64,000 nucleotides of DNA from Aurantimonas manganoxydans SI85-9A1. Lineage in GTDB: Bacteria > Pseudomonadota > Alphaproteobacteria > Rhizobiales > Rhizobiaceae. The translations under genes were made by a program, and so were the position numbers. Under the pieces are notes generated by a model. The model ran no database searches. It had not been told where the DNA came from and saw only the letters and a program-made list of their open reading frames with translations. Positions 25,300 through 39,763 of the stretch are shown here, piece after piece (position 1 is the first letter of the stretch; each line of letters opens with the position of its first letter). Where the stretch lies: positions 340,179-404,178 of the forward strand of contig NZ_CH672387.1 in assembly GCF_000153465.1 (NCBI RefSeq), in the 5' to 3' direction.

Positions 25300-26886
25300 T
25301 CAACCGGCGTCGAAGAAGGCCTCCAGATCATGGGGGGCGCCGGGAGGCTCATGCCAAGCGCGGTGTGCCTCTCCGGTGATCGCGTATCCGCGTGCAGGAG
25401 CGATGGTAGTGGCGGACCGCGCGCGCTCCGCAAACACCCGGCCGACACCGATCAGGATCGGGCGGTCGACGCCGATCCTGGCGACGATGGCGCCGAGGTC
25501 GGCGAGCGTGCCGGCGGCGCGGGTTTCGTCGTCGCGCGACAGATTGGCGGCGACGGCGACCGGGGTCGTGGCCGGCAGGCCGTGATGGATCAGCCGCTCG
25601 GCGATCTTCGCCGCCATCCGGCCGCCCATGTAGAAGACGGTGGTGGCGTGATCGTCGGCCAGCGCATGCCAGTCGAGGTCCTCCGGCAGGCCGCCCTTCT
25701 TGGAATGGCCGGTGACGAAACGCAGCTGCTGGGCCCGGTCGCGATGGGTCAGCGACACGCCGAAGCTCGCCGCCAGCGCCGAAGCGGCGGTGATGCCCGG
25801 CACGATGGCGACCGGAATGTTCTCGCGCGCCAGCTCGTCCAGCTCCTCGCCGGCCCGGCCGAACACCGACACGTCGCCGGATTTCAGCCGCACGACGTGC
25901 TTGCCCGCCTTGGCGAAGCTGACCATCATGGCGTTGATATCTTCCTGGCGGCAACTGTCGCGGGCGGCGCGCTTGCCGACCAGCATGCGCCGTGCCTCGC
26001 GGCGGGCGAGCTCCAGGATCTCGTCGGAGACGAGGTCGTCGAACAGGATCACATCGGCCGCCTGCAGGGCGCGGACCGCCTTCAGCGTCAGGAGTTCGGC
26101 TTCGCCGGGGCCCGCCCCGACCAGGGTGACGCGGCCGCCGGCCTCGGGCGAGCGCGCCAGATCGTCGATGAAGCCGCCGGCCGCCGCCTCGGCCGCGGCG
26201 TCCGGCAGTTTGGTGGTGAAGGCGCTGTCGGCGAAGCGCTCCCAGAAGGCACGGCGCAACGGGCCCGGCGAGAGCCGCTCCATCACCGCGCCGCGGACCC
26301 TGGCGGCCAGGGCCGCCCACTGGCTGAGCGCCGGCGGCAGAAGGGTCTCGATGCGGCGGCGGATCACCTGGCCGAGGATCGGTGCGGCGCCGTCGGTGGA
26401 AATACCGATGACCACCGGCGAGCGATTGACGATCGTGCCGAAGCGGAAGTCGCAATAGGATGGCTTGTCGACGACGTTGACCGGCACGCCGGCCGCCCGC
26501 GCGGCGCAGGCGAAAGCCTGGCCCTCGGCGAGGCTCTCGGTATCGCCGACGGCGATCGCCGCTCCGGCGAAGACATCGGTCGCCCAGGGCCGGTCGTGAT
26601 GAATGATCACGCCGGATTCCGGCGGCACGGCGAGAAGCTCGGCCATCTCGCCATCGATCCCGTCCGCCGGGACATAGAGATCGACGAGGGCCCCCGCCGA
26701 GGCCAGGAGCTCGACCTTCCATGCCGCGCCCGGGCCGCCCCCGGCCATGACGACGCGCTTGCCCGCTAGGTCGAAGAACACCGGCAGGCTCGCCAGCGGA
26801 CCCATGCGCTGCGAGCGCTGCGGGAGCCGTTCGGTGTCGTTCCCGGCGAGGGGCGGCTTACGCCGTGTTTGCAAGCCGTGCATCAT
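25300..26886 (-). CDS. cysG: Siroheme synthase (CysG)
   Basis: A 528-residue trifunctional enzyme making siroheme, the cofactor of nitrite reductase. Residues about 28-230 form the precorrin-2 dehydrogenase/ferrochelatase module (LAGKRVVMAGGGPGAAWKVE nucleotide-binding start). Residues about 253-495 form the uroporphyrinogen-III C-methyltransferase module, with VTLVGAGPGEAELLTLKA, the RLKSGDVSVFGRAGEE loop and VPGITAASALAASFGV. It is the last gene of the nitrate operon; its start overlaps the nasA stop by about 28 bases. An in-frame ATG two codons in or the later MGPLASLPVF codon are alternative starts. Its place in the operon ties cofactor supply to nitrite reductase demand. Confidence 0.92.
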   Translation of the reverse strand: MMHGLQTRRKPPLAGNDTERLPQRSQRMGPLASLPVFFDLAGKRVVMAGGGPGAAWKVELLASAGALVDLYVPADGIDGEMAELLAVPPESGVIIHHDRPWATDVFAGAAIAVGDTESLAEGQAFACAARAAGVPVNVVDKPSYCDFRFGTIVNRSPVVIGISTDGAAPILGQVIRRRIETLLPPALSQWAALAARVRGAVMERLSPGPLRRAFWERFADSAFTTKLPDAAAEAAAGGFIDDLARSPEAGGRVTLVGAGPGEAELLTLKAVRALQAADVILFDDLVSDEILELARREARRMLVGKRAARDSCRQEDINAMMVSFAKAGKHVVRLKSGDVSVFGRAGEELDELARENIPVAIVPGITAASALAASFGVSLTHRDRAQQLRFVTGHSKKGGLPEDLDWHALADDHATTVFYMGGRMAAKIAERLIHHGLPATTPVAVAANLSRDDETRAAGTLADLGAIVARIGVDRPILIGVGRVFAERARSATTIAPARGYAITGEAHRAWHEPPGAPHDLEAFFDAG

Positions 26887-29578
26887 CGATGATCCCCTTG
26901 ATCTCGCTGCGGCAGGAGCCGCAATTGGTCCCTGCCTTCAACGCCGCGCCGACAGCCTCGACGGTGATGGCCCGGCCGGTGGTCACCGCCGTCGCGATCT
27001 CGTTGACGCCGACGCTGAAGCAGGAGCAGACGATCGCACCGGGGTCCGGGCGGTCGGCACCCCCGCGCCCGGCCAGCAGGCGGAAGCGGTCGCGGACAGC
27101 GTTGTGCGCGTCGCCCAGCTGCCCCGCCGCCCAGACGCGCGAGACGGCGACGGGGTCGCGCGCAATCCAGAGCGCGCCGATCAGCGCTTCACCGTCGAAG
27201 GCGGCAAAGCGATGCGCACCGGTCGTCGTGTCGTGGAACGCCAGCATCTGCGCCCTGTCCGGCGCCTCGAGCAACGCCGTGGCGAAAGCGCTCGGGTCAG
27301 CCTGCGGCGCCAGGCCTGCCAATTCCATGCGCCAGCCGGCCTCGGCCCGCGCCAGCGCGAAATAGTCGAGGCCGTGCGGATCGGGCCGCGACCGCGTGAT
27401 GGCAAAGCCGAACCAGACGGCGGGGAACGGCGCGATCGACACCTCGGTGGCCTTGAGACCAGGCTGGCCGGAGACCGGATCGACGGCCGGTGCGACCACC
27501 GCGTCGATGCGACCGCTGCCTGAGAATTCGTCGCTCCAGTGCATCGGCACGAAGACCGAGCCGCGCGATTGCCGGTCCGTGGTTCGGCAACGCACGATCG
27601 CCGCGCCGATGCCGGATCGCACGGTGACGAGGCCGGCTTCCGCGATCCCTTGCGCTGCGGCGTCTGCCGGATGGACGTCGACGAAGGGCTCTGCGACATG
27701 GGCCGAAAGCCGGGCCGAGCGACCGGTGCGGGTCATCGTGTGCCAATGGTCGCGCACACGCCCGGTGTTGAGCAGGAACCGGCCCTTGCCCAGCCGGCGC
27801 CGGGGCGCGACGTCGACTGCCACGAAGCGGGCGCGCCGGTCCGGGTGGAAGAAGTCCCCGTCGCCGAAGAAGCGGCTGCCGTCGTTCGCCAGAGCCGCCG
27901 TCGCTTCGACCGAGGCGTCGCCGGATCCGTGCGACGTGACCGTGCGGGGCTGCGGCCACTGGACAGGCGGCAGGGCGTCGTAGCCGCACTGGTCGAGCCC
28001 GGCGAGCGCGCCGATGTCGAAGTCGCGCTCTCCCGCGTTGCCATAAGCGGAGAGCCGCGCGTGTTCGTCGAAGACGTCCGCCGCGCTGGCATGGGAAAAG
28101 CCGTCGGCGAAGCCCATGCGGCGGGCGACGTCGGCGATGATCGCCCAGTCGGGCCGGGCCTCGCCGGGAAGCGGCAGGAAGGGGCGCTGACGCGATATCC
28201 GCCGCTCGGAATTGGTCACCGTTCCGTCCTTTTCGCCCCAGGCCGCGGCGGGCAGGGCGACATCGGCGAAGGGCAGGGTATCGTTGCGAGCGACGACATC
28301 GGAGACGACGACGAAGGGGCAGGCGGCTAGGGCGGCCTTGACCGCGTCAGCATCCGGCATCGACACCACGGGATTGGTGCCGATGATCCAGAGCGCCCTG
28401 ATCCGGCCGTCGGCGACGGCGCGGAACATGTCGACCGCCTTCAGGCCGGCACGGTCGGGCATCGCCCGGGCGTCCCAGAAGTCTCGCACCAGGGAGCGGT
28501 GCGCCGGGTCCTCGATCGCCATGTGCGCCGCGAGCATGTTGGCCATGCCGCCAACCTCTCGCCCGCCCATGGCATTGGGCTGGCCGGTCACCGAGAAGGG
28601 ACCCATGCCGGGTCGTCCGATGCGGCCGGTCGCCAGATGGCAGTTGATGATCGCGTTCACCTTGTCGGTGCCCGTCACCGACTGGTTGACGCCCTGGCTG
28701 TAGACCGTGACGACCTTTTCGGTCCTGGCGAAGAGCTCGTAGAAGGCCTGGACCTGACGGCTGTCGAGACCGGTGGCCTCCGCAACATGTGGCAGCCGCA
28801 TTCCGCGGGCCCGGCGCAGCGCCTCGACGAAGCCGTCGGTATGCCGGGCCACATAGTCGCAATGGATCGCACCGGCCTCGGCGAGAAACGGCAACAACCC
28901 GGCGAAGAGCGCCGTGTCGCCATCGGCAGCGATCGGCAGATGCAGATCGGCGAGATCGGCGCTTGCCGTACGGCGCGGATCGACGAGCACGATCTTCATC
29001 TGCGGGCGCGCGGCTTTGGCCGCCGCGATCCGCTGGTAGAGCACCGGATGGCACCAGGCGAGGTTCGAGCCGACGAGGACGATCAGATCGGCCTGTTCCA
29101 GGTCCTCATAGGTGCCCGGCACCGTGTCGGAGCCGAAGGCCCGGCGATGGCCGGCGACCGAGGAGGCCATGCACAGGCGGGAATTGGTGTCGATGTTCGC
29201 CGAGCCGATGAAGCCCTTCATCAGCTTGTTGGCGATGTAGTAATCCTCGGTCAGCAACTGGCCGGAGACGTAGAAGGCGACGGAGTCGCGCCCGTGTTCG
29301 GCGATGGTGGCGGTGAAGCGTTCGGCGACGCGCGAAAGCGCGTCGTCCCAGTTCGCACGTGCGCCGGCGATGGTCGGGAACAGCAGCCGTTCCTCCAGCC
29401 CCAGTGTTTCACCGAGGGCCGAGCCCTTGGAGCAGAGGCGGCCGAAATTCGCCGGATGAGCGGGGTCACCGGCGATCGCCACGCTGCCATCTGGACGCGG
29501 GGTTGCCAGGACCCCGCAGCCAACGCCGCAATAGGGGCATGTCGTCCGGATGGTGGTGTCGGCCGGTCGTTCGTCCAT
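26858..29578 (-). CDS. nasA: Assimilatory nitrate reductase catalytic subunit
   Basis: A 906-residue cytoplasmic molybdoprotein reducing nitrate to nitrite. The N-terminal [4Fe-4S] ligands are in CPYCGVGCGVL; the bis-MGD domains follow (NSRLCMASSV, VYSQGVNQSVTGTDKVN, GQPNAMGGREVGGMANML). The C-terminal about 60 residues carry a BFD-type [2Fe-2S] site, IVCSCFSVGVNEI and GTNCGSCRSEIKGI. No separate NasB flavoprotein gene is present in the operon, so the electron donor is either encoded elsewhere or is a ferredoxin/flavodoxin. The gene lies 14 bases after nirD. Start at the ATG giving MDERPADTTIRTT. Confidence 0.94.
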   Translation of the reverse strand: MDERPADTTIRTTCPYCGVGCGVLATPRPDGSVAIAGDPAHPANFGRLCSKGSALGETLGLEERLLFPTIAGARANWDDALSRVAERFTATIAEHGRDSVAFYVSGQLLTEDYYIANKLMKGFIGSANIDTNSRLCMASSVAGHRRAFGSDTVPGTYEDLEQADLIVLVGSNLAWCHPVLYQRIAAAKAARPQMKIVLVDPRRTASADLADLHLPIAADGDTALFAGLLPFLAEAGAIHCDYVARHTDGFVEALRRARGMRLPHVAEATGLDSRQVQAFYELFARTEKVVTVYSQGVNQSVTGTDKVNAIINCHLATGRIGRPGMGPFSVTGQPNAMGGREVGGMANMLAAHMAIEDPAHRSLVRDFWDARAMPDRAGLKAVDMFRAVADGRIRALWIIGTNPVVSMPDADAVKAALAACPFVVVSDVVARNDTLPFADVALPAAAWGEKDGTVTNSERRISRQRPFLPLPGEARPDWAIIADVARRMGFADGFSHASAADVFDEHARLSAYGNAGERDFDIGALAGLDQCGYDALPPVQWPQPRTVTSHGSGDASVEATAALANDGSRFFGDGDFFHPDRRARFVAVDVAPRRRLGKGRFLLNTGRVRDHWHTMTRTGRSARLSAHVAEPFVDVHPADAAAQGIAEAGLVTVRSGIGAAIVRCRTTDRQSRGSVFVPMHWSDEFSGSGRIDAVVAPAVDPVSGQPGLKATEVSIAPFPAVWFGFAITRSRPDPHGLDYFALARAEAGWRMELAGLAPQADPSAFATALLEAPDRAQMLAFHDTTTGAHRFAAFDGEALIGALWIARDPVAVSRVWAAGQLGDAHNAVRDRFRLLAGRGGADRPDPGAIVCSCFSVGVNEIATAVTTGRAITVEAVGAALKAGTNCGSCRSEIKGIIDDARLANTA

Positions 29579-29592
29579 CGCGCGGGTCCCGG

Positions 29593-29937
29593 CTATTCGG
29601 CGGCGAGGACGAGGGCGGGTTCGTCCAGCGACAGTTCGATGTCGCCGGTCGGCGGGTCGACCCGCACGGCGAAGACCCGCACCCGACCTTCGTCGGGCCC
29701 GGCGGCGATCCCGCTCTCCAGCGAGAACACCATGTTGTGCAGCGGGCAGGTGACCGAGGCGTCGTGGACGATGCCCTGGCTGAGCGGCCCGCCCTTGTGC
29801 GGACAGCGGTCCTCGGTGGCGAAGATGCCGTCATTGGCGGTCCGGAACACTGCGACGCGACCGAACGGCGTGAGCACGCAGCGCGCGCCGCGGCGGGGAA
29901 TGTCGGTGACCGCTCCGATGCGATGCCAGCCGGTCAT
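29593..29937 (-). CDS. nirD: Nitrite reductase small subunit with Rieske cluster site
   Basis: A 114-residue Rieske-fold protein, partner of NirB. Unlike enteric NirD, which lacks the ligands, it keeps all four: C45 and H47 (CPHKGG), C64 and H67 (CPLHNM). It should therefore bind a [2Fe-2S] cluster. Its start overlaps the nirB stop by four bases. Together NirBD reduces nitrite to ammonium with NAD(P)H. Confidence 0.92.
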   Translation of the reverse strand: MTGWHRIGAVTDIPRRGARCVLTPFGRVAVFRTANDGIFATEDRCPHKGGPLSQGIVHDASVTCPLHNMVFSLESGIAAGPDEGRVRVFAVRVDPPTGDIELSLDEPALVLAAE

Positions 29938-32378
29938 TCGGCAGCCTCCAGGGTGAGATCGGCCATCGGGCGGAACTCGTGGCTGGCGCGCGCGCCCGAG
30001 GCCCGCTCCGACCAGGGGTCGGTCTGGCTGAAGGTCTGGCTATGGACGAAGGCTTCGTAATAGCCGCGCCGCCGCGCCGCATCCTCGACGATGACGGCGC
30101 GGATCGAGTCCATGCCGACCCGCTTCAGCCATTTGTACATGCGCTCCAGATAATGGCCCTGCTCGCGATAGAGCTGGACGAGGGCGACGATCATCTCCAG
30201 TGCCTCGTCCTCGGTCTTCACCTGCGTGAGGATCTCGGTGCCCTTGATGTCGAGCCCCGCTGCACCGGCGAACTGGATCTCGTAGCCGGCGTCGGTGCAG
30301 ATCACGCCGACATCCTTGCAGGTCGCCTCGGCGCAGTTCCGGGGGCAGCCGGACACCGCCATCTTCACCTTGGCGGGCGTCCATGAGCCCCACATGAACT
30401 TCTCGATCCTAACGCCGAGGCCGGTGGAATCCTGCGTGCCGAAGCGGCACCAGTCGGTCCCGACGCAGGTTTTCACGGTGCGCAGGCCCTTGGCATAGGC
30501 GGCGCCGGAGACCATGCCGGCGGCGTTCAGATCGGCCCAGACCGCGGGCAGGTCCTCCTTCTTCACGCCGAGGAGGTCGATGCGCTGGCCGCCGGTGCAC
30601 TTGACGGTCGGGATCGCGAACTTGTCGGCGACGTCGGCGATCGCCCGCAGTTCGTTGGCCGAGGTGATACCGCCCCACATGCGGGGCACGACCGAATAGG
30701 TGCCGTCCTTCTGGATGTTGGCATGGACCCGCTCGTTGATGAAGCGGGACTGCTTGTCGTCGACATAGTCGCCCGGCCAGTCGGCGATCAGGTAGTAGTT
30801 GAGGGCCGGCCGGCACTTGGCGCAGCCGCAGGAGGTCTTCCACTCCAGCTCCTGCATGACCTCGGGGATCGACTTCAGCGCCTTGGCGCGGATCAGCCGT
30901 CGCACGTCGCCATGGCCGAGATCGGTGCAGGGGCACATCGGCTTGACGGCCGCAGGATTGAAGGCGGCGCCCAGGGTCAGCGCCATGAGCTGCTCCACGA
31001 GCCCGGTGCAGGAGCCGCAAGAGGCGGACGCCTTGGTTTGGGCCCGCACCTCGTCGATGCTGGTCAGCCCGCCCGCGGCAACCGCGCCAGTGATCTTCGA
31101 TTTGCATACGCCGTTGCAGCCGCAGATTTCCGCATCATCCGGCAAGGCTGCAACGGCCGCCATAGGGTCCAGGGGGGTACCCCCTTGGAAGGACTGGCCG
31201 AAGATCAGGGTTTCGCGCATGTCCGATACCGGGGCGCCGTCGCGAATGAGGTCGAAGAACCAGTTGCTGTCGGCGGTATCCCCGTACATCACGGCGCCGA
31301 CGAGCCGGTCGTCCTCGATCACCAGGCGCCTGTAGACACCCTGCGCCGGATCGCGAAGGACGATCTCCTCGCGTTTCTCGCCTTCGGCAAAGTCGCCGGC
31401 GCTGAAGAGGTCGCATCCCGTGACCTTGAGCTTGGTCGACAATTCCCTGACCGCAAAGGCGTCCGGCTGGCCGAGTAGCGACTTCGCCAGCACCCTGGCC
31501 TGATCGTAGAGCGGGGCGACGAGGCCGAAGAGCGTGCCGTCGAACTCCACGCATTCGCCGACGGCGTAGATATCGGGGTCCGACGTCTGCATCTGGGCGT
31601 TCACGACGATCGCGCGGCCGATGTCGAGACCCGCATCCCTGGCGATCTGCGCCGCCGGGCGGATGCCGACCGCCATGACCACCAGATCCGCCTTCAGGGT
31701 TGTCCCGTCCGCCAGTTCGACGCCTTCGACACGGTTCGTGCCGAGAATCCTCTGGGTCGAGGCGCGCGTCATCACGGTGATGCCGCGCTTTTCCAGATCC
31801 TTTCGCAGGAGATAGCCGGCCGCCTCGTCGAGCTGACGCTCCATCAGGTGACCCGACAGATGCAGGACGGTGACCTCCATTCCGCGCAACCGCAGCCCGG
31901 CCGCCGCTTCCAGGCCTAGAAGCCCGCCGCCGATGACGACGGCATGGCTGCCGGGCGTGCCGGACGCCTCGATCATGGCGTGGGTGTCGTCGAAATCGCG
32001 GTAGGTGATGACCCCGGGCAGGTCCCGGCCTTCCACCGGCACGATGAACGGGACCGAGCCGGTGGCGATGATCAGCTTGTCGTAGGGCACCTCGCCCTTC
32101 GCGCCGGTGACGATCTTGCGCTCCCGGTCGATCGCGACGACCTTCTCGCCGAAGCGGCAGGTCACGTTGTGCGCGCCGTACCAGTCCTCGTCATGGGTGA
32201 CGATCTCGTCATAGCTCTTCTCGCCGGACAGGACCGGCGACAGCATGATGCGGTTGTAGTTGCCGCGCGGTTCCGCATTGAACAGCGTGACCGCGTAGGC
32301 GTCCCGATCGGCCTCGAACAGGGTCTCGAGCACCCGGCCGGACGCCATGCCGGCACCGATGACGACCAGTTTCTGCAT
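29934..32378 (-). CDS. nirB: Nitrite reductase [NAD(P)H] large subunit
   Basis: An 814-residue flavo-siroheme enzyme. In order: FAD/NAD domain from residue 1 (KLVVIGAGMASGRVLETLF), two [2Fe-2S] BFD-like segments (CGCNGVCKSKI with CGSCTGLV; CPCTDLGHGDVRRL with CGCAKCRPALNYY), and the siroheme/[4Fe-4S] domain (TCVGTDWCRFG and GCPRNCAEATC). The ATG at 32378 follows aaagga at six bases; the upstream TTG codon lies within that site. It reduces nitrite by six electrons to ammonium in the cytoplasm. Located between the GAF-repeat gene and nirD, and supplied with siroheme by cysG in the same operon. Confidence 0.95.
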   Translation of the reverse strand: MQKLVVIGAGMASGRVLETLFEADRDAYAVTLFNAEPRGNYNRIMLSPVLSGEKSYDEIVTHDEDWYGAHNVTCRFGEKVVAIDRERKIVTGAKGEVPYDKLIIATGSVPFIVPVEGRDLPGVITYRDFDDTHAMIEASGTPGSHAVVIGGGLLGLEAAAGLRLRGMEVTVLHLSGHLMERQLDEAAGYLLRKDLEKRGITVMTRASTQRILGTNRVEGVELADGTTLKADLVVMAVGIRPAAQIARDAGLDIGRAIVVNAQMQTSDPDIYAVGECVEFDGTLFGLVAPLYDQARVLAKSLLGQPDAFAVRELSTKLKVTGCDLFSAGDFAEGEKREEIVLRDPAQGVYRRLVIEDDRLVGAVMYGDTADSNWFFDLIRDGAPVSDMRETLIFGQSFQGGTPLDPMAAVAALPDDAEICGCNGVCKSKITGAVAAGGLTSIDEVRAQTKASASCGSCTGLVEQLMALTLGAAFNPAAVKPMCPCTDLGHGDVRRLIRAKALKSIPEVMQELEWKTSCGCAKCRPALNYYLIADWPGDYVDDKQSRFINERVHANIQKDGTYSVVPRMWGGITSANELRAIADVADKFAIPTVKCTGGQRIDLLGVKKEDLPAVWADLNAAGMVSGAAYAKGLRTVKTCVGTDWCRFGTQDSTGLGVRIEKFMWGSWTPAKVKMAVSGCPRNCAEATCKDVGVICTDAGYEIQFAGAAGLDIKGTEILTQVKTEDEALEMIVALVQLYREQGHYLERMYKWLKRVGMDSIRAVIVEDAARRRGYYEAFVHSQTFSQTDPWSERASGARASHEFRPMADLTLEAAE

Positions 32379-32389
32379 GAACGTTCCTT

Positions 32390-33325
32390 TCAATAGTACC
32401 AGGCGACGACGTGGCTGATCGTTCCGTCGCGATAGATCGGAACAGCCACCATCGATGCGTAGCCGGCGGTCAGAGCGGGATTGTCGTGCTTGACGGCGGG
32501 GATGCCGGTGCCCAGCACCTCGCCGATCGGCCCCTGCCAGGCCGCCACGCGCGCTTCGTTCTCGTCGTCCCAGAGCGGTCCCTCACGTTGGCAGATGCCG
32601 TCGGCGAGGACCGCCTCCCTGGCGCCGGCCGTTCCGGCGGCGCGCGCATTCCACAACTCGAACCGTTGAGCGATCGGCGTGCCGCGGGCCGAAAGCAGTG
32701 TCAGGACATAGGTCCGGTCGCCCGGCACGGTGATCGGCAGGCCAAGACCTGTGGTCAGGCCGGCCCTGCCGGCGCTTTCGGCGCGGATGAAGCGGTAGCC
32801 CGAGCCGAGATCGCGCATCAGCATCGGCGCGTTCGCCGCCCATACGCCGCCGGGCAGGCCCTGTCCGCGGGGGAAATGCGTATGCTGCGAGACCCATTCG
32901 AAGTGCCGCGCCGCCCCGTAATAGCCGTCGTCCAGCATCATGAGGCCGTCGCTCTCGCGCCAGACCTCGATGGCGCCGGTGCGCGATTCGTCATCGGCGC
33001 ACAGCACGACGATGACGGCCTTCAGGGCGCTTCCGGCAAAGATCGGCACGGCGACCGCGCAGGTCAGCCCCGCCGCCCTGGCGGCCTCGGCGCGCTGGAA
33101 ATAGGAGCCGTCGAACTGCTTCAGCACCACCGGGCGGGCCTCGTCCCAGGCTCGGCCGGGCAGGCCTTCGCCCCTGGCGAAGCTCTGTTTCGCCGAAACG
33201 GCGGCGAAGGTGTCCAGCGTGCCGTAATTGCCGCTCGACCAGACCAGACGGTCGCCATCGGGCACCCACACTTCCGTCACCTCGACAAAGGCGCGGGTGG
33301 CGACTTCGGGCGCGATCACGCTCAT
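32390..33325 (-). CDS. GAF-repeat protein of the nitrate operon, function unknown
   Basis: A 311-residue soluble protein built of tandem GAF-like units with no output domain. The repeats align well: [10 protein letters not shown] (51-60) and [10 protein letters not shown] (153-162), a period of 102 residues, each followed by an AxxAGLT strand and a PI... VxxL strand. A shorter third copy runs from WQGPIGEV (263) to the C-terminus. Its start overlaps the nrtCD stop by four bases and its stop lies 12 bases before nirB, so it is fully embedded in the operon. A sensor or scaffold for nitrate, nitrite, redox state or nitric oxide is conceivable; nothing in the sequence settles this. Cysteines are C89, C109 and C245. 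Confidence 0.72.
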
Positions 33326-35082
33326 GCCGCTTCCCTTTCCGCGCCCGCGGCCTTGTCGTCGGCGGTCGTCTCCGCGCCGCCCGCCTGTGGGCCGGGGCCA
33401 CCCTTTTCGTACTCTTCCAGGAAGCTCAGGAGCTGTTCGCGATAGAGGTAGTAATCGGGATGCTCGAGCAGCGCCTTGCGGGTGCGCGGGCGCGGCAGGT
33501 CGACCTTCATGATCTTGCCGATCCGGGCCATCGGGCCGTTGGTCATCATCACGACCCGGTCGGCGAGGAGGATCGCCTCGTCGACGTCGTGGGTGACGCA
33601 GACGGTGGTCACCTGGGTCCGCTTCCAGACATCCATCAGGACGTCCTGAAGCTCCCAGCGGGTCAGTGAATCGAGCATGCCGAACGGTTCGTCGAGCAGC
33701 AGCAGTTTCGGCGACAGGGCGAAGGCACGGGCGATGCCGACCCGCTGCTTCATGCCGTTGGACAGGTCTTCGGCCCGCCGGTGCATGGAATCGCCGAGCC
33801 CGACGCGGTGGAGATAATGTTCGACGACATCGCGGCGTTCGGCCGGCGTCGCGTCGGGATAGACCCGGTCGACCCCGAGAGCGACGTTCTCCCGGGCCGT
33901 CAGCCAGGGCATCAGGGACGGCGACTGGAAGACCACCGCGCGTTCGGGGCCGGCTCCGCTGACCTCGCGGCCATCGAGGATGATGCCGCCCGACGAGATG
34001 TCGTTGAGGCCGGCGGCCATGGACAGGACCGTCGACTTGCCGCAGCCCGAATGGCCGATCAGCGAGACGAACTCGCCCTTTTCCATCTTCATGTCGAAGC
34101 CGTCGACGACGGTCAGCGGCCCCTTCGGCGTCGGATAGGTCTTGGTGACCTCGAAGAACTCGACATAGCCGCGCCCGATGGCGGACTGCGCTGCGCGGCG
34201 ATAGGCGGCCGGAAGCTCCGGCATCGGTCCCTTCGCCGATTTCTGGGTGATCGGGACGACGTTGGGCAGGCAGACCGCTGCATCCGTGTCGGCGGAGGCA
34301 TGGCGCCCCCGATCCATCAGATAGCCCGTGATCTCGCGGCGCAGGCGCTTGAATTCGTCATTGGCATTCATCGCCGAGCGGTCGCGCGGGCGCGGCAGTT
34401 CGACCGGAAAGGACGGCCCGAGACTGGCCTTCGGGCCCGGATCGAGCGGGATGATCCGATCGGCGAGCAGGATCGCCTCGTCGACATCGTTGGTGATCAG
34501 GATGATGGTCTTCTTCTCGACCTGGCTGATCGCGGCGAATTCGTCCTGCAGCTTGGCGCGGGTCAGGGCGTCGAGAGCCGACAGCGGTTCGTCGAGCAGC
34601 AGGATCTCCGGGCTCATGGCGAGAGCCCGTGCAACCGAGACACGCTGGCGCATGCCGCCGGAGAGCTCGGCCGGCTTGCGGTCGACGGCGTGTGCGAGAC
34701 CGACCATGTCGATGTACCTGTCGACACGTGCCTTGCGGCAGGCCTTCGTCTCGCGGGCGAAGACGGTGTCGACCGCGAGCGCGACATTGCCGCGGACCGT
34801 GAGCCACGGCATCAGCGAATACGACTGGAAGACCAGCCCGCGCTCCGGGCCGGGTCCCGTCACCTGGGCGCCCCTCATCAGCACCTGGCCGGCATCGGGC
34901 CGGATGAGCCCTGCCAGGAGGGAGATCAGCGTGGTCTTGCCGGAACCGGAAAAGCCGACGATCGCGACGAACTCGCCTTCCGCGACCTTGAGGTCGATGC
35001 CGTCGAGGATCTCGGCGCGACCCGGACCCTCGCCGTAGGCCTTTGAGACATTCGCCAGTTCGATCATCGGGGAGGTGGCCAT
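33322..35082 (-). CDS. nrtC: Nitrate ABC transporter, fused dual ATP-binding protein
   Basis: A 586-residue protein with two complete ABC ATPase domains in one chain, joined by a linker of about 100 residues; nitrate systems more often use separate NrtC and NrtD. Domain 1 (about 5-245): Walker [10 protein letters not shown], signature LSGGMRQRV, Walker [13 protein letters not shown]. Domain 2 (about 330-560): Walker [10 protein letters not shown], signature LSNGMKQRV, Walker [13 protein letters not shown]. The switch histidine is present in domain 2 (THDVDEA) but is asparagine in domain 1 (TNDVDEA). Start at ATG 35082, with aaagga seven bases upstream. It energises uptake through NrtB. Overlaps the GAF gene by four bases. 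Confidence 0.9.
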
Positions 35083-35114: not shown

Positions 35115-36209
35115 TCAGCGGTTCGAGGTGAAGGTGAAGGCGGTCTGCAGGGCAGCCATGATCCGGTCGAGCATGAAGCCGACGATGCCGATGGTGATCA
35201 CCGCGACGATGATCCGGGCCAGCGAATCCGACGAGCCGTTCTGGAACTCGTCCCACACGAACTTGCCGAGGCCGGGGTTCTGGGCCAGCATCTCGGCGGC
35301 GATCAGCACCATCCAGCCGACGCCGAGCGACAGGCGCAGTCCGGTGAAGATCAGCGGCATGGCCGAGGGCAGGACCAGCTTGGTGATGGTCTTGTGCGTC
35401 GGCAGCTGCAGCACCTTGCCGACATTGACGAGATCCTTGTCGATCGATGCGACGCCGAGCGCCGTGTTGATCAGGGTCGGCCAGAGCGAGCAGAGGGTGA
35501 CCGTGATCGCCGAGACCACCATCGACTTCGGCACGGCGTCGGAGGCGTTCACGTAGAGAGCCGAGACGATCATCGTGACGATCGGCAGCCAGGCCAGGGG
35601 CGACACCGGCTTGAAAATCTGGATCAGCGGATTGAGCGCGCCGTTGATCGTCGCGGACAATCCGCAGGCGATGCCGACCGGAATGGCGATGATGGTGGCG
35701 AGCACGAAGCCGAGGAACACGGTCTTGAGGCTGGTCAGGATCTGTTCCGGATAGGTCGGGGCGCCGGTGTAACTGCGGGTCTTCACGCGGTCCGCCATGC
35801 CCTGTTCGACCAGCTTGGCATTGCGCGCGTCCTGTCGCTCGTAGAACGCCACCCGGTCCTGCCGGCCCCGCTGATAGTCGTCGTACAGCGAGCCGACCTG
35901 CTGCCAGACCTGAACCGGCCCGGGCACCGTGCCCAATGATGTCTGGACCTGCGGGGCGAGGGCGGCCCAGGCGGCGAGAAAAGCGACGATGCCGATCAGC
36001 GGCACGATCAGGCTCTGCCACAGGGCGCGCAGATTGCTGCGGGCATCGTCTCCAGCAGCGATCTTCATGACCGGCACGGACCAGCCGAGGCCTATCGCGG
36101 TCAACGGTCCGGTGGCGCGGGTGATCCGGGACATCCGCTTTTCGCGCTTCACTACCCGGCGCTCGGCGGGGGACAGCTCGTCGCCCATGAAATCGGAGGC
36201 GGTACTCAT
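35115..36209 (-). CDS. nrtB: Nitrate ABC transporter permease
   Basis: A 364-residue inner-membrane protein of the NrtB/SsuC/TauC class. After a basic cytoplasmic leader of about 60 residues comes span 1 (about 68-86), then a long charged loop of some 85 residues, then five more spans with the BPD permease domain. The EAA-like cytoplasmic loop that contacts the ATPase is recognisable in [28 protein letters not shown]. The long first loop is larger than in sulfonate permeases and is seen in alphaproteobacterial NrtB. Lies 32 bases before nrtCD; a perfect 10-bp hairpin separates it from nrtA. Confidence 0.9.
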
Positions 36210-36283: not shown

Positions 36284-37666
36284 TCAGTTGGAGACGACGC
36301 TGGCGACGTCCTCGGAGCCCTTCAGCCCGATCTCGAACTTCGCGAGATATTCGTTCGGCTTGCGCCCCTCATATTCGACGCCGTCGATGAACTCGGCCGT
36401 CGCCGGCTTGTAGCCATCGGTGTCGGGCACTGCGGACGGGTCCAGATAGCCGTCCTCGATGAGGGATTCCGCGGCCTGGCGGTAGATGTCGGGCCGGTAG
36501 ACCGACGCGGCGGTCTCCGCGTACCAGGCATCGGATTTTTCCTCGGAGATCTGGCCCCAGCGACGCATCTGGGTGAGGTACCAGACCGCATCCGAGTAGA
36601 AGGGGTAGGTCGCGAACTTGTCGAAGAAGACGTTGAAGTGCGGCGCTTCGCGCGTGTCGCCCTTCTCGTATTCGAAGGTGCCGGTCATCGAGTTGGCGAT
36701 GACCTCAGGATCGGCCCCGACATATTCGGGCCGCGACAGGATCTCGACCGCCTGCCGGCGGTTGGCGCCGTCATCGGCATCGAGCCACTGGCCGGCGCGG
36801 ATCAGCGCCTTGGTGACGGCGATCGCGGTGTTGGGGTTTTCCTCGACGAATGCCGCCGTCATCCCGAAGACCTTCTCGGGATTGTCCTTCCAGATCTCGT
36901 AGTCGGTGATCACCGGCACGCCGATGCCCTTGAACACCGCCTGCTGGTTCCACGGTTCGCCGACGCAATAGCCCTGGATGGTGCCGGCCTCGAGCGTCGC
37001 CGGCATCTGCGGCGGCGGGGTCACGGACAGGAGCACCTCGGCGTCGATCTGGCCGGAGGTATCGCTCGGCGAGTAATAGCCGGGGTTGAGCCCGCCGGCC
37101 GCAAGCCAGTAGCGCAGCTCGTAATTGTGGGTCGAGACCGGGAAGACCATCCCCATGTTGAAGGTCTTGCCAGCCGAGCGGTACTGCTCGACTACCGGTG
37201 CGAGCGCGGCAGCCGAGATCGGGTGCTCCGGCTTGCCGTCGGGGCCCGCCGGGATGTGCGTCTTCATCTCCGCCCAGACGTCGTTTGAGACGGTGATGCC
37301 GTTGCCGTTCAGATCCATGGAGAGCGGCGTGACGATATGCGCCTTGGTGCCGTAGCCGATCGTCGCCGCCAGGGGCTGGCCGGCCAGCATGTGGGCGCCG
37401 TCGAGTTCGCCGGTGATGGTGCGGTCGAGCAGCACTTTCCAGTTGGCCTGGGGCTCGATCGTGACGTACAGGCCCTCATCCTCGAAGAAGTGCATCTCCT
37501 TGGCGATGGCGAGCGGTGCCATGTCGGTGAGCTTGATGAAGCCGAAGGTCAGTTCGTCCTTCTCGACCGGCAGCATGCCGGCCGACGCGGGCGAGGCGGC
37601 CAGGACGGCAAACGCTCCCGTGCAGGCAAGAAGGGTTCGGCGAGAGACTGCGATGATGCTGGCCAT
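36284..37666 (-). CDS. nrtA: Nitrate-binding protein with Tat signal
   Basis: A 460-residue periplasmic binding protein of the NrtA/CmpA class. The start at 37666 gives a twin-arginine signal ([10 protein letters not shown], hydrophobic stretch, then ASPASA), indicating export of the folded protein. The mature part shows the family's substrate region ([47 protein letters not shown]). In-frame codons up to 48 residues upstream fall inside the attenuator leader and were rejected. It delivers nitrate (possibly nitrite) to NrtB. It is the first gene after the NasT-type terminator leader. Confidence 0.92.
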
Positions 37667-37724: not shown

Positions 37725-37791
37725 AAAAAAGGCTGCCCGACCCGTTGTCGCCCCGAAGCCTCGGAAGCGCATGAAAACGAAGTCGGCAGCC
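37725..37791 (-). terminator. Leader terminator upstream of nrtA
   Basis: On the minus strand, ggctgccgac (37791-37782) pairs with gtcgggcagcc (37741-37731), one G bulged, followed directly by TTTTTT (37730-37725). The apical loop is about 40 bases. It stands 59 bases before the nrtA start. Confidence 0.75.
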
Positions 37792-37884
37792 TTGCCGGTG
37801 CGCCCGCCATTGGGCGCCTATGATGCCGGCAAGCGGTGCCGGGAGAAGATGGGAGACGGATCAGTGATCCGGTCTCTGGCCACC

Positions 37885-37914
37885 ATTCTTACTGCCGCAG
37901 CGGAGATGTTGCAA
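37885..37914 (-). promoter_or_regulatory. Possible sigma-70 promoter for the nitrate leader
   Basis: On the minus strand TTGCAA (37914-37909) and TAAGAAT (37891-37885) stand 17 bases apart, upstream of the first leader hairpin. The match to consensus is moderate. Confidence 0.3.
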
Positions 37915-38007: not shown

Positions 38008-39180
38008 TCATGTCTCGTGCGGATCGCCGTTTTCAGCATCAAAGAGGCCCTCCGGGCGGTCCGACACGGAAGAGGGCCCATCCTCGTCCGCATCTTCATC
38101 TCGCGCGGCAGCGGGCTTTGGGTCTCCTCGTGCATTGTCGAAGAGATCCGGGCGGAATGTCCGACCGGCGATGGCCAGCCCGGTTTCGCAGAAGCGGACA
38201 TCGCCCCATCGTGCCATCTGACGATAAAGCCATCGGCCATGGCTCCGGTCAGGACGATTGGCGTCCCGACCGGCGAAGATCATGAAGCCCTCGATGGACC
38301 GGAATCGTCCCGGGGCGACTTCCATCCGACCGGTTATCCCCGCCATGAGATCGTCCGACGGCAGGCCGAGATGTTCCGGCAAGGCCAGCAAATCCGCGAG
38401 AGCGCGATGATTGGCCGGATCAGCGCACCAGAGCGCGGCCTGACCGAGAGCGTCGATGAGGCGGGACAGCGTTTCCGGGCGGTCCCTTGCAAATGCGGCG
38501 GAGACGCCGAGCACCTTTTCCGGGCCACGTCGCCAGATCTCCGCCTTGCTGGTGACGATCCGCCCGACACCGCGCCGCACGGCGACCGTGCTCCAGGGTT
38601 CGCCGACGCAGAAGCCGTCGATCTCCCCGACGGCGAGAGCGTCGGGCACCAGTGACGGCGGGACGACGGTGATCTCCACGTCCCGGTCCGGTTCGATCCC
38701 GGCCGCGGCAAGCCAGTAACGCAGGTCGTAATTGTGGCTCGAATAGCGATGGACGATAGCGAGCCGGGCTTGGCTGCCCCCTGCCTGCGCCCGCCGGCCG
38801 AGGGCTGATTTCAGCGCGGCACCCGCCGCTGCAGGCCCATCCGGATCGTCGCCAGCCGTATCGGCCATGGCCTGGGCGAGGGCGGTCGAGACAGTGACGG
38901 CATTGCCGCCGAGCGCCAGCACCATCGGCGCGATCATCGGAACGGCAAGCGGGCCAATGCCCAGATTGGCCGCGATCGGCATCGGCGCCAGCATGTGTGC
39001 GGCGTCGAACTGACCGACCCCCATCCGGTCGCGGATCGTCGCCCAGGAGGTTTCCCGGAAGAGGGTGAGATCGAGGCCGCGTTTCTCGGCAAAGCCGAGC
39101 TTCGCGGCGACCAGCAGCACGGCGCTGTCGAGCAGCGGCAGATAGCCGAGGCGCACGCTCTCAAGCTTCGTCACGGGCAT
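38008..39180 (-). CDS. nasS: Nitrate/nitrite sensor NasS
   Basis: A 390-residue relative of NrtA without a signal peptide, hence cytoplasmic. It keeps the ligand-binding framework (FDAAHMLAPMPIAANLGIG, HNYDLRYWLAAAGIEP, GFCVGEPWSTVAV). In NasS-NasT systems this protein holds the antiterminator NasT inactive until nitrate or nitrite binds. It overlaps the nasT gene by 20 bases and is followed by the attenuator leader of nrtA. The C-terminal 35 residues are acidic, proline-poor and probably unstructured. Confidence 0.9.
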   Translation of the reverse strand: MPVTKLESVRLGYLPLLDSAVLLVAAKLGFAEKRGLDLTLFRETSWATIRDRMGVGQFDAAHMLAPMPIAANLGIGPLAVPMIAPMVLALGGNAVTVSTALAQAMADTAGDDPDGPAAAGAALKSALGRRAQAGGSQARLAIVHRYSSHNYDLRYWLAAAGIEPDRDVEITVVPPSLVPDALAVGEIDGFCVGEPWSTVAVRRGVGRIVTSKAEIWRRGPEKVLGVSAAFARDRPETLSRLIDALGQAALWCADPANHRALADLLALPEHLGLPSDDLMAGITGRMEVAPGRFRSIEGFMIFAGRDANRPDRSHGRWLYRQMARWGDVRFCETGLAIAGRTFRPDLFDNARGDPKPAAARDEDADEDGPSSVSDRPEGLFDAENGDPHET

Positions 39181-39763
39181 CTCCCAGCAGCGAATAGGCG
39201 CTGACGAGGCCCTGGGCGACGTCGGCGATCTTTCGGTTCTCGTTCATGGCCGTTCGACGCAGGAGCGCGTAAGCTGCAGGCTCGTCCAGCTTCTTCAGTT
39301 TCATCAGGATGCCTTTGGCACGCTCGATCACCTTGCGCTCGGCCAGTTCCGAGCGCGCTTCCGCCAGTTCGCTGGACAGCCGGGAAAAGGCATTGAAGCG
39401 CGAGATCGCCATGTCGAGGATCGGCTTGACGCGCTCCTTCCTGAGCCCGTCGACGATGTAGGCCGAGACGCCGGCGTCGACGGCCGCCTCGATCGCGCCG
39501 GCGTCGGAGCGGTCGACGAACATCGCGACCGGCTTCTTCACCAAGCGGGAGACCTGGAAGAAGTGTTCCAGCTGGTCCCGGTTGGGGTTTTCCAGGTCCA
39601 CGACGATCACGTCCGGCTGAACCGTCTCGATGCGTTTCACCAGGCCGAGAATCTCTCTGACGACGGCGACCCGCCGATGTCCGGCCTCGCGCAGCCCCGC
39701 CTCGATGATGGCGGCACGAACGGCATTTTCGTCGAAAACCAGGATGGAAAGATCGGCGTCCAT
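39161..39763 (-). CDS. nasT: ANTAR-domain antiterminator NasT
   Basis: A 200-residue protein with an N-terminal receiver-like domain (residues 1-120) and a C-terminal ANTAR RNA-binding domain (about 130-190; VIERAKGILMKLKKLDEPAA, then the RRTAMNENRKIADVAQG helix). ANTAR proteins bind paired short RNA hairpins and stop formation of a terminator. Start taken at the ATG giving MDADLSILVF; an in-frame ATG six codons upstream is possible. The matching RNA elements lie upstream of nrtA, 1.4 kb away. Confidence 0.92.
   Translation of the reverse strand: MDADLSILVFDENAVRAAIIEAGLREAGHRRVAVVREILGLVKRIETVQPDVIVVDLENPNRDQLEHFFQVSRLVKKPVAMFVDRSDAGAIEAAVDAGVSAYIVDGLRKERVKPILDMAISRFNAFSRLSSELAEARSELAERKVIERAKGILMKLKKLDEPAAYALLRRTAMNENRKIADVAQGLVSAYSLLGDARDEA

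Follow-up and report, generated by a model that had tools for sequence, protein, structure and literature searches.

A dual-hexaloop ANTAR antiterminator, predicted to respond to NasT, heads the nitrate assimilation operon of an Aurantimonas genome

The gap between nasS and nrtA on the minus strand of the window (the whole 64-kb stretch of DNA analysed here) holds a dual-hexaloop ANTAR antiterminator that overlaps an intrinsic terminator. This switch heads an nrtABC-GAF-nirB-nasA-cysG operon, and we consider it highly probable that this leader puts an operon for nitrate assimilation under NasS-NasT transcription antitermination. The original prediction for this stretch of DNA had placed a NasT/ANTAR antitermination switch before the nitrate operon, and it is strongly supported by what was observed here: two hairpins that covary, A1 and G4 invariant in both loops, an overlap with the terminator, the order of the genes and the co-occurrence with NasT across genomes. 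The mechanism is already known, and the leader is a new, cleanly supported member. It provides one exact, testable switch for the entire nitrate-assimilation operon.

Gene order and regulator proteins

NrtA of the window was 99% identical to NrtA of Aurantimonas coralicida DSM 14790, indicating an Aurantimonas-type genome. On the minus strand the genes are arranged in the order nasT, nasS, a gap of 341 nt that is the site of the leader, nrtA, nrtB, nrtC/D, a GAF protein, nirB, nasA and cysG. That nasT and nasS lie just upstream of the leader had been predicted, and is borne out by the open reading frames and their Pfam domains.

39161-39763, minus strand: nasT, REC + ANTAR RNA-binding antiterminator (Pfam PF03861, E 2e-20; PF00072)
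38008-39180, minus strand: nasS, nitrate/nitrite-binding sensor homologue overlapping the nasT end (Pfam PF13379, NMT1_2); a homologue lies 5' of the RNA in relatives
36284-37666, minus strand: nrtA, nitrate-binding ABC transporter component, first gene past the switch, ATG at 37666 (Pfam PF13379)
35115-36209, minus strand: nrtB, ABC transporter permease (Pfam PF00528)
33322-35050, minus strand: nrtC/D, open reading frame with ABC transporter ATP-binding domains (Pfam PF00005 on 33322-34260), 5' start approximate
32390-33325, minus strand: GAF-domain protein (Pfam PF13185)
29934-32393, minus strand: nirB, nitrite reductase large subunit (Pfam NIR_SIR, Pyr_redox_2, Fer2_BFD)
26858-29578, minus strand: nasA, assimilatory nitrate reductase (Pfam Molybdopterin, Molydop_binding, Fer2_BFD)
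25300-26886, minus strand: cysG, sirohaem synthase (Pfam TP_methylase, CysG_dimeriser)

The gene for the GAF-domain protein sits within the nitrate operon, between the transporter genes and nirB.

NasT was the sole ANTAR protein found in the genome (a single ANTAR match in a search of the genome itself). As in a NasS-NasT system, this REC-domain ANTAR protein adjoins an NrtA-like sensor without an export signal: the N-terminus of NasS is MPVTKLESVRLGYLPL, in which no signal peptide was seen by eye. NasT was aligned with EutV, whose RNA-contacting residues have been listed (PMC8934654), and 10 of the 11 were found to be identical or conservatively replaced, the aligned residues of NasT being R143, K144, R148, K150, E161, Y165, R169, M173, N174 and K178. 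EutV R142, K143, K149, E160, Y164, R168, M172 and N173 are unchanged in NasT, K147 is replaced by Arg and R177 by Lys; the single RNA-contact residue lost is EutV R175, replaced by N176. Judging from studied homologues, NasT would bind the ANTAR hairpins of the window, and nitrate/nitrite would dissociate NasS from NasT as in Paracoccus denitrificans (PMC3795266).

Anatomy and conservation of the leader

In the 5' to 3' direction of the minus strand, the leader comprises a stem at about 37877-37854, the stem CCGGC-ACCGCTT-GCCGG at 37842-37826, a hairpin P1, two bases, a hairpin P2 and the terminator.

37886-37914, minus strand: putative promoter, TTGCAA (37914-37909) - 17 nt - TAAGAA (37891-37886), proposed from conservation alone
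37826-37842, minus strand: upstream stem-loop CCGGC-ACCGCTT-GCCGG with a 7-base loop; not an ANTAR hairpin; potential pairing of its 3' arm with the P2 5' arm in nascent RNA
37800-37817, minus strand: P1, first ANTAR (recruitment) hairpin gcgccc-AATGGC-gggcgc, hexaloop 37811-37806, covarying
37784-37797, minus strand: P2, second ANTAR (antiterminator) hairpin cggc-AAGGCT-gccg, hexaloop 37793-37788; cannot form together with the terminator
37725-37793, minus strand: intrinsic terminator, in which AAGGCTGCC pairs with GGCAGCCTT, followed by the rest of the U6 tract; stem 37793-37729, U-tract 37730-37725

Both loops are 6 nt long with A at position 1 and G at position 4 (AATGGC in P1, AAGGCT in P2), in agreement with the loop rules for ANTAR hairpins, which like the limits on the linker are supplied by studies of EutV (PMC3369931, PMC8934654). 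The stem-loop cggc-AAGGCT-gccg (37797-37784) shares bases 37793-37784 with the 5' arm of the terminator, just as the original prediction had described; the terminator reuses AAGGCTGCC from the P2 region and ends in U6 at 37725, an arrangement of the attenuation type. The first ANTAR hairpin had been assigned to 37842-37826, where a stem-loop does exist but is neither conserved nor an ANTAR hairpin. The stem cgccc/gggcg, regarded previously as a third small stem merely lying between the pair, is actually P1: gcgccc-AATGGC-gggcgc covaries, and it is the true first hairpin because its loop is 6 nt with A1 and G4, as an ANTAR protein needs. With the correct P1 the linker is therefore 2 nt (37799-37798), not about 28, and two supposed anomalies that would contradict the ANTAR model vanish together: the linker of 28 bases was an artefact of the wrong first hairpin, and the loop of 7 (or 5) bases gives way to AATGGC, a proper hexaloop.

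An actinobacterial survey gave linkers of 2-25 nt between ANTAR hairpins (PMC8164766), and eut linkers are 5-12 nt long, a 3-nt version having failed for EutV (PMC3369931). The short linker of the window is inside the former range and under the latter; it stands at the low edge of what has been published, which counts against the switch reading. Stem lengths are counted differently, however, and the loop-to-loop distance, 18 nt against 24 in eutP, is close to the value in relatives.

In order to estimate how often such a structure arises by chance, we used a descriptor built from loop rules, stem lengths and pairing, and terminator overlap only. It demands a hairpin of at least 5 bp with a loop A..G.. 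and, at most 14 nt further on, a hairpin of at least 3 bp with a loop A..G.., the loop and 3' arm of which must pair with a segment ahead of a T-run. Over both strands of the 64-kb window a single match was obtained, at the leader, and none in 20 simulated 64-kb sequences, while in the named relatives forward-strand matches fell just upstream of nrtA.

Among the checks named in the original prediction were folding with and without the terminator and covariation of the stems across relatives. The 201-nt region folded better than 200 shuffles (z -2.7). Predicted energies were -33.1 kcal/mol for the terminator fold and -7.6 kcal/mol for P2, and the leader with the terminator was about 12 kcal/mol more stable than the leader with P2 forced. 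On this modelled difference the default state would be off, and a protein would have to hold P2.

As for covariation, 30 nrtA loci from the host's family were fetched, and the P1+P2 pair was present in 28. Within these 28 cores 98.8% of cells were paired, double changes numbered 21 compared with 5.3 in the shuffles, and P1 showed compensatory changes at three of its six pairs. We then combined 23 of these leaders with 18 loci of the Rfam family RF03032 (n=41). Here 97.8% of P1+P2 cells were paired (31-62% in slid controls) and 75 double-change cells were counted against 21.2 in shuffles. Compensatory change was seen in 5/6 P1 pairs and 1/3 P2 pairs, the covariation of P2 being a GC/AU change at one pair. 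Both stems thus covary. A1 and G4 were kept in both loops of all 41 sequences, which holds for no other loop position. The terminator stem also covaries, with 96.6% of cells paired. Alignments of further loci agree with the covariation; these were fitted to the model, and some rows come from the same species as training rows. Two individual loci may be recorded at this point: one nrtA is without such a leader (L027), and at another P1 is kept, P2 is degraded and no terminator was found (L011).

Three other readings of the leader were weighed. In the anatomy exactly as first proposed, the ANTAR pair would be the upstream 7-base-loop stem and P2, separated by a linker of 28 nt in which an inert third stem lies. 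We give this almost no credence. The upstream stem exists, its loop starts with ACCG, and the minimum-energy fold can include it, but it is not conserved in 26 relatives (41.5% of cells paired; shuffles 34.7%, slid controls 31-39%) and was judged no better than the slid controls. At the corresponding place A. coralicida (L100) has CCGGCAACGCTTGCCGG, a longer stem without an A..G hexaloop, and another Aurantimonas (L101) lacks the stem. The non-conservation and the sister species A. coralicida rule out the upstream stem as an ANTAR hairpin, whereas P1, the in-between stem, has every ANTAR feature and covaries. In addition, EutV antitermination in vitro is abolished by 20 extra linker nucleotides (PMC8934654), which suggests that a linker of 28 nt would likely not work. 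It is likewise most improbable that P1 and P2 are chance hairpins beside an ordinary intrinsic terminator that follows nasS, and that nrtA is controlled solely at its promoter. In favour of this, a strong terminator and a promoter-like site upstream are both present; against it, the dual hairpin is rare by chance (0/20 simulated windows), and P1 and P2 covary, keep A1/G4 and track NasT across genomes.

The remaining possibility is a three-hairpin switch. NasT would bind P1 and P2, and in the Aurantimonas coralicida lineage the upstream stem would contribute a further level of control: it might be a third, weaker binding site for NasT, or it might pair with the P2 5' arm and mask that arm until NasT is there. 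TTGCCGG (37832-37826) is complementary to CCGGCAA (37798-37792), which covers the P2 5' arm and the loop start, and in the RNA up to P2 this long-range pairing is predicted to be 4.4 kcal/mol better than P1+P2. This predicted energy counts against the preferred reading; it speaks for the three-hairpin switch, as does the presence of the complementary segment in A. coralicida. Nevertheless, the upstream stem is not conserved in other relatives, the segment may persist merely through the closeness of the two species, and such small differences in fold energy are unreliable for co-transcriptional folding. Taking both sides into account, we consider the three-hairpin switch unlikely and prefer the pair P1 and P2 overlapping the terminator.

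NasT, narK RNA and promoters across genomes

A covariance model of the P1+P2 pair, designated R2, gave one convincing match in the host genome, at the leader (47 bits). The runner-up (L034, 23.9 bits), a candidate for a further NasT target, lies within the hom coding sequence and was treated as chance; lower matches scored 22 bits or less. Among 398 Pseudomonadota genomes R2 matched 31 at E up to 5e-4, and NasT was present in 31/31, against a base rate of 116/398 (hypergeometric 1e-18), and in 16/16 matched genomes without a training sequence (1e-9), although these values overstate the strength of the link because the genomes are non-independent. NasT was also present in 28/28 further matched genomes of the order, which represent 18 genera, none in training. 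Weaker matches, at E of about 6e-4 to 0.01, fall partly in genomes that lack NasT and resemble noise.

Of 61 R2 matches in the family, 55 follow a same-strand nasS homologue at a downstream distance of no more than 2 kb (median 388 nt), and four of the remaining six directly precede an nrtA match. The RNA persists while the nitrate transporter encoded behind it varies between genomes: judged by eye from the sequence starts, the transporter is NrtA, another NrtA/NasF-like binding protein or an MFS protein of the NarK/NasA-like type. In a Rhodobiaceae MAG (L126) the RNA occurs twice, at positions 1251 and 2781, some 1.5 kb from each other. No R2 match was obtained at many of the gammaproteobacterial nrtA loci examined, and the model therefore does not cover every nrtA leader. 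R2 connects NasT to RNA targets across alpha- and gammaproteobacteria, making targets predictable from sequence.

The best Rfam match to the leader was RF03032, narK RNA, at an insignificant 15.7 bits against a gathering cutoff of 43.2, and on this score RF03032 was rejected as a direct annotation of the window. The family is said to have been defined by Weinberg et al. 2017. Members in 21 genomes display a sigma-54 promoter, a P1 whose loop is usually AACGGC, and a terminator; as a rule they also have a second hairpin that reads cgacAAAGGCgtcg or resembles it. Most members examined have an A1/G4 second hairpin at a spacing similar to that in the window; the loci L045 and L067 have G instead of A1 in loop 2. 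NasT was found in 20 of the 21 genomes at E up to 1e-20, the remaining one having a weaker ANTAR match, and in several genomes the RNA starts within a few bases of the end of the nasT match. The Rfam model pairs P1 only and counts the sigma-54 promoter (TGGCAC-N5-TTGC) as RNA, leaving P2 unpaired and the terminator outside the model (loci L041-L070). narK RNA appears to be the form that the switch takes in gammaproteobacteria, captured by Rfam as a sigma-54 promoter and P1. In all likelihood RF03032 does not represent an RNA class of its own but one half of a NasT/ANTAR antiterminator, which together with the alphaproteobacterial leaders constitutes one RNA family with NasT targets readable from the genome sequence. 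This suggests an identity for an orphan Rfam element. No link between RF03032 and ANTAR was found in the literature searched, the family-defining paper lying outside that search.

The window is without the 5' sigma-54 promoter of RF03032; the best sigma-54 match (6/11) was no better than shuffles. The narK RNA model aligns its promoter letters GGCAC...TTGC to GGCACCGCTTGC of the upstream stem, and a sigma-54 promoter at that site was rejected, as the GG-GC spacing is 2 nt too short and the site too near P1. A strict sigma-70 scan found no promoter, and TTGCAA-N17-TAAGAA is consequently only a putative one, with transcription predicted to start near 37880; TTGCAM-N17-TAnnnA occurs at the corresponding place in most Aurantimonas/Jiella relatives. 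A sigma-54 site that matches 9-11 of 11 consensus letters lies upstream of most leaders that belong to the family but not to the Aurantimonas/Jiella/Fulvimarina group. The Aurantimonas/Jiella group (the window; L101-L108, L117, L173) is without it and mostly has TTGCAM-N17-TAnnnA. Since the sigma-54 promoter is replaced in this manner, ammonium (NtrC) control may act differently in the group.

Proposed mechanism and comparison with known systems

NasT binding, its release by nitrate and the on/off outcome are modelled here on studied homologues. P1 (37817-37800) would emerge first in the leader RNA, followed by P2 (37797-37784). Without nitrate, NasS would hold NasT, the loop and 3' arm of P2 would be drawn into the far stronger terminator (37793-37725), and RNA polymerase would stop before nrtA. 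With nitrate/nitrite present, NasS would release NasT, which could then bind the A1/G4 hexaloops of P1 and P2, hold P2 and block the terminator, so that nrtABC-GAF-nirB-nasA-cysG would be transcribed.

In P. denitrificans, NasT that has been activated by nitrate binds the nasA leader (PMC3795266), and growth on nitrate is lost when a hairpin in this leader is mutated (PMC5424462). That system resembles the window in having nasT-nasS directly upstream and non-coding leader hairpins tied to termination before nitrate genes. The first controlled gene differs, nrtA (ABC transporter) in the window and nasA in P. denitrificans, and the leaders are likened by description, not sequence. In Bradyrhizobium diazoefficiens, NasT-dependent antitermination has been reported at nosR and a NasT hairpin predicted in the nirA leader (PMC6759348); the targets there include denitrification as well as assimilation genes, and the likeness to the window is again one of description, not sequence. 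The RNAs of EutV/eutP, NasR/nasF and AmiR/amiE share with the window two A1/G4 hexaloop hairpins, the second overlapping a terminator (PMC3369931, PMC8934654), whereas the window has a longer P1 stem (6 bp), a 2-nt linker and GC-rich stems. In terms of the signal, the regulator of the window would be released by a separate nitrate sensor, while EutV is phosphorylated and NasR senses nitrate itself.
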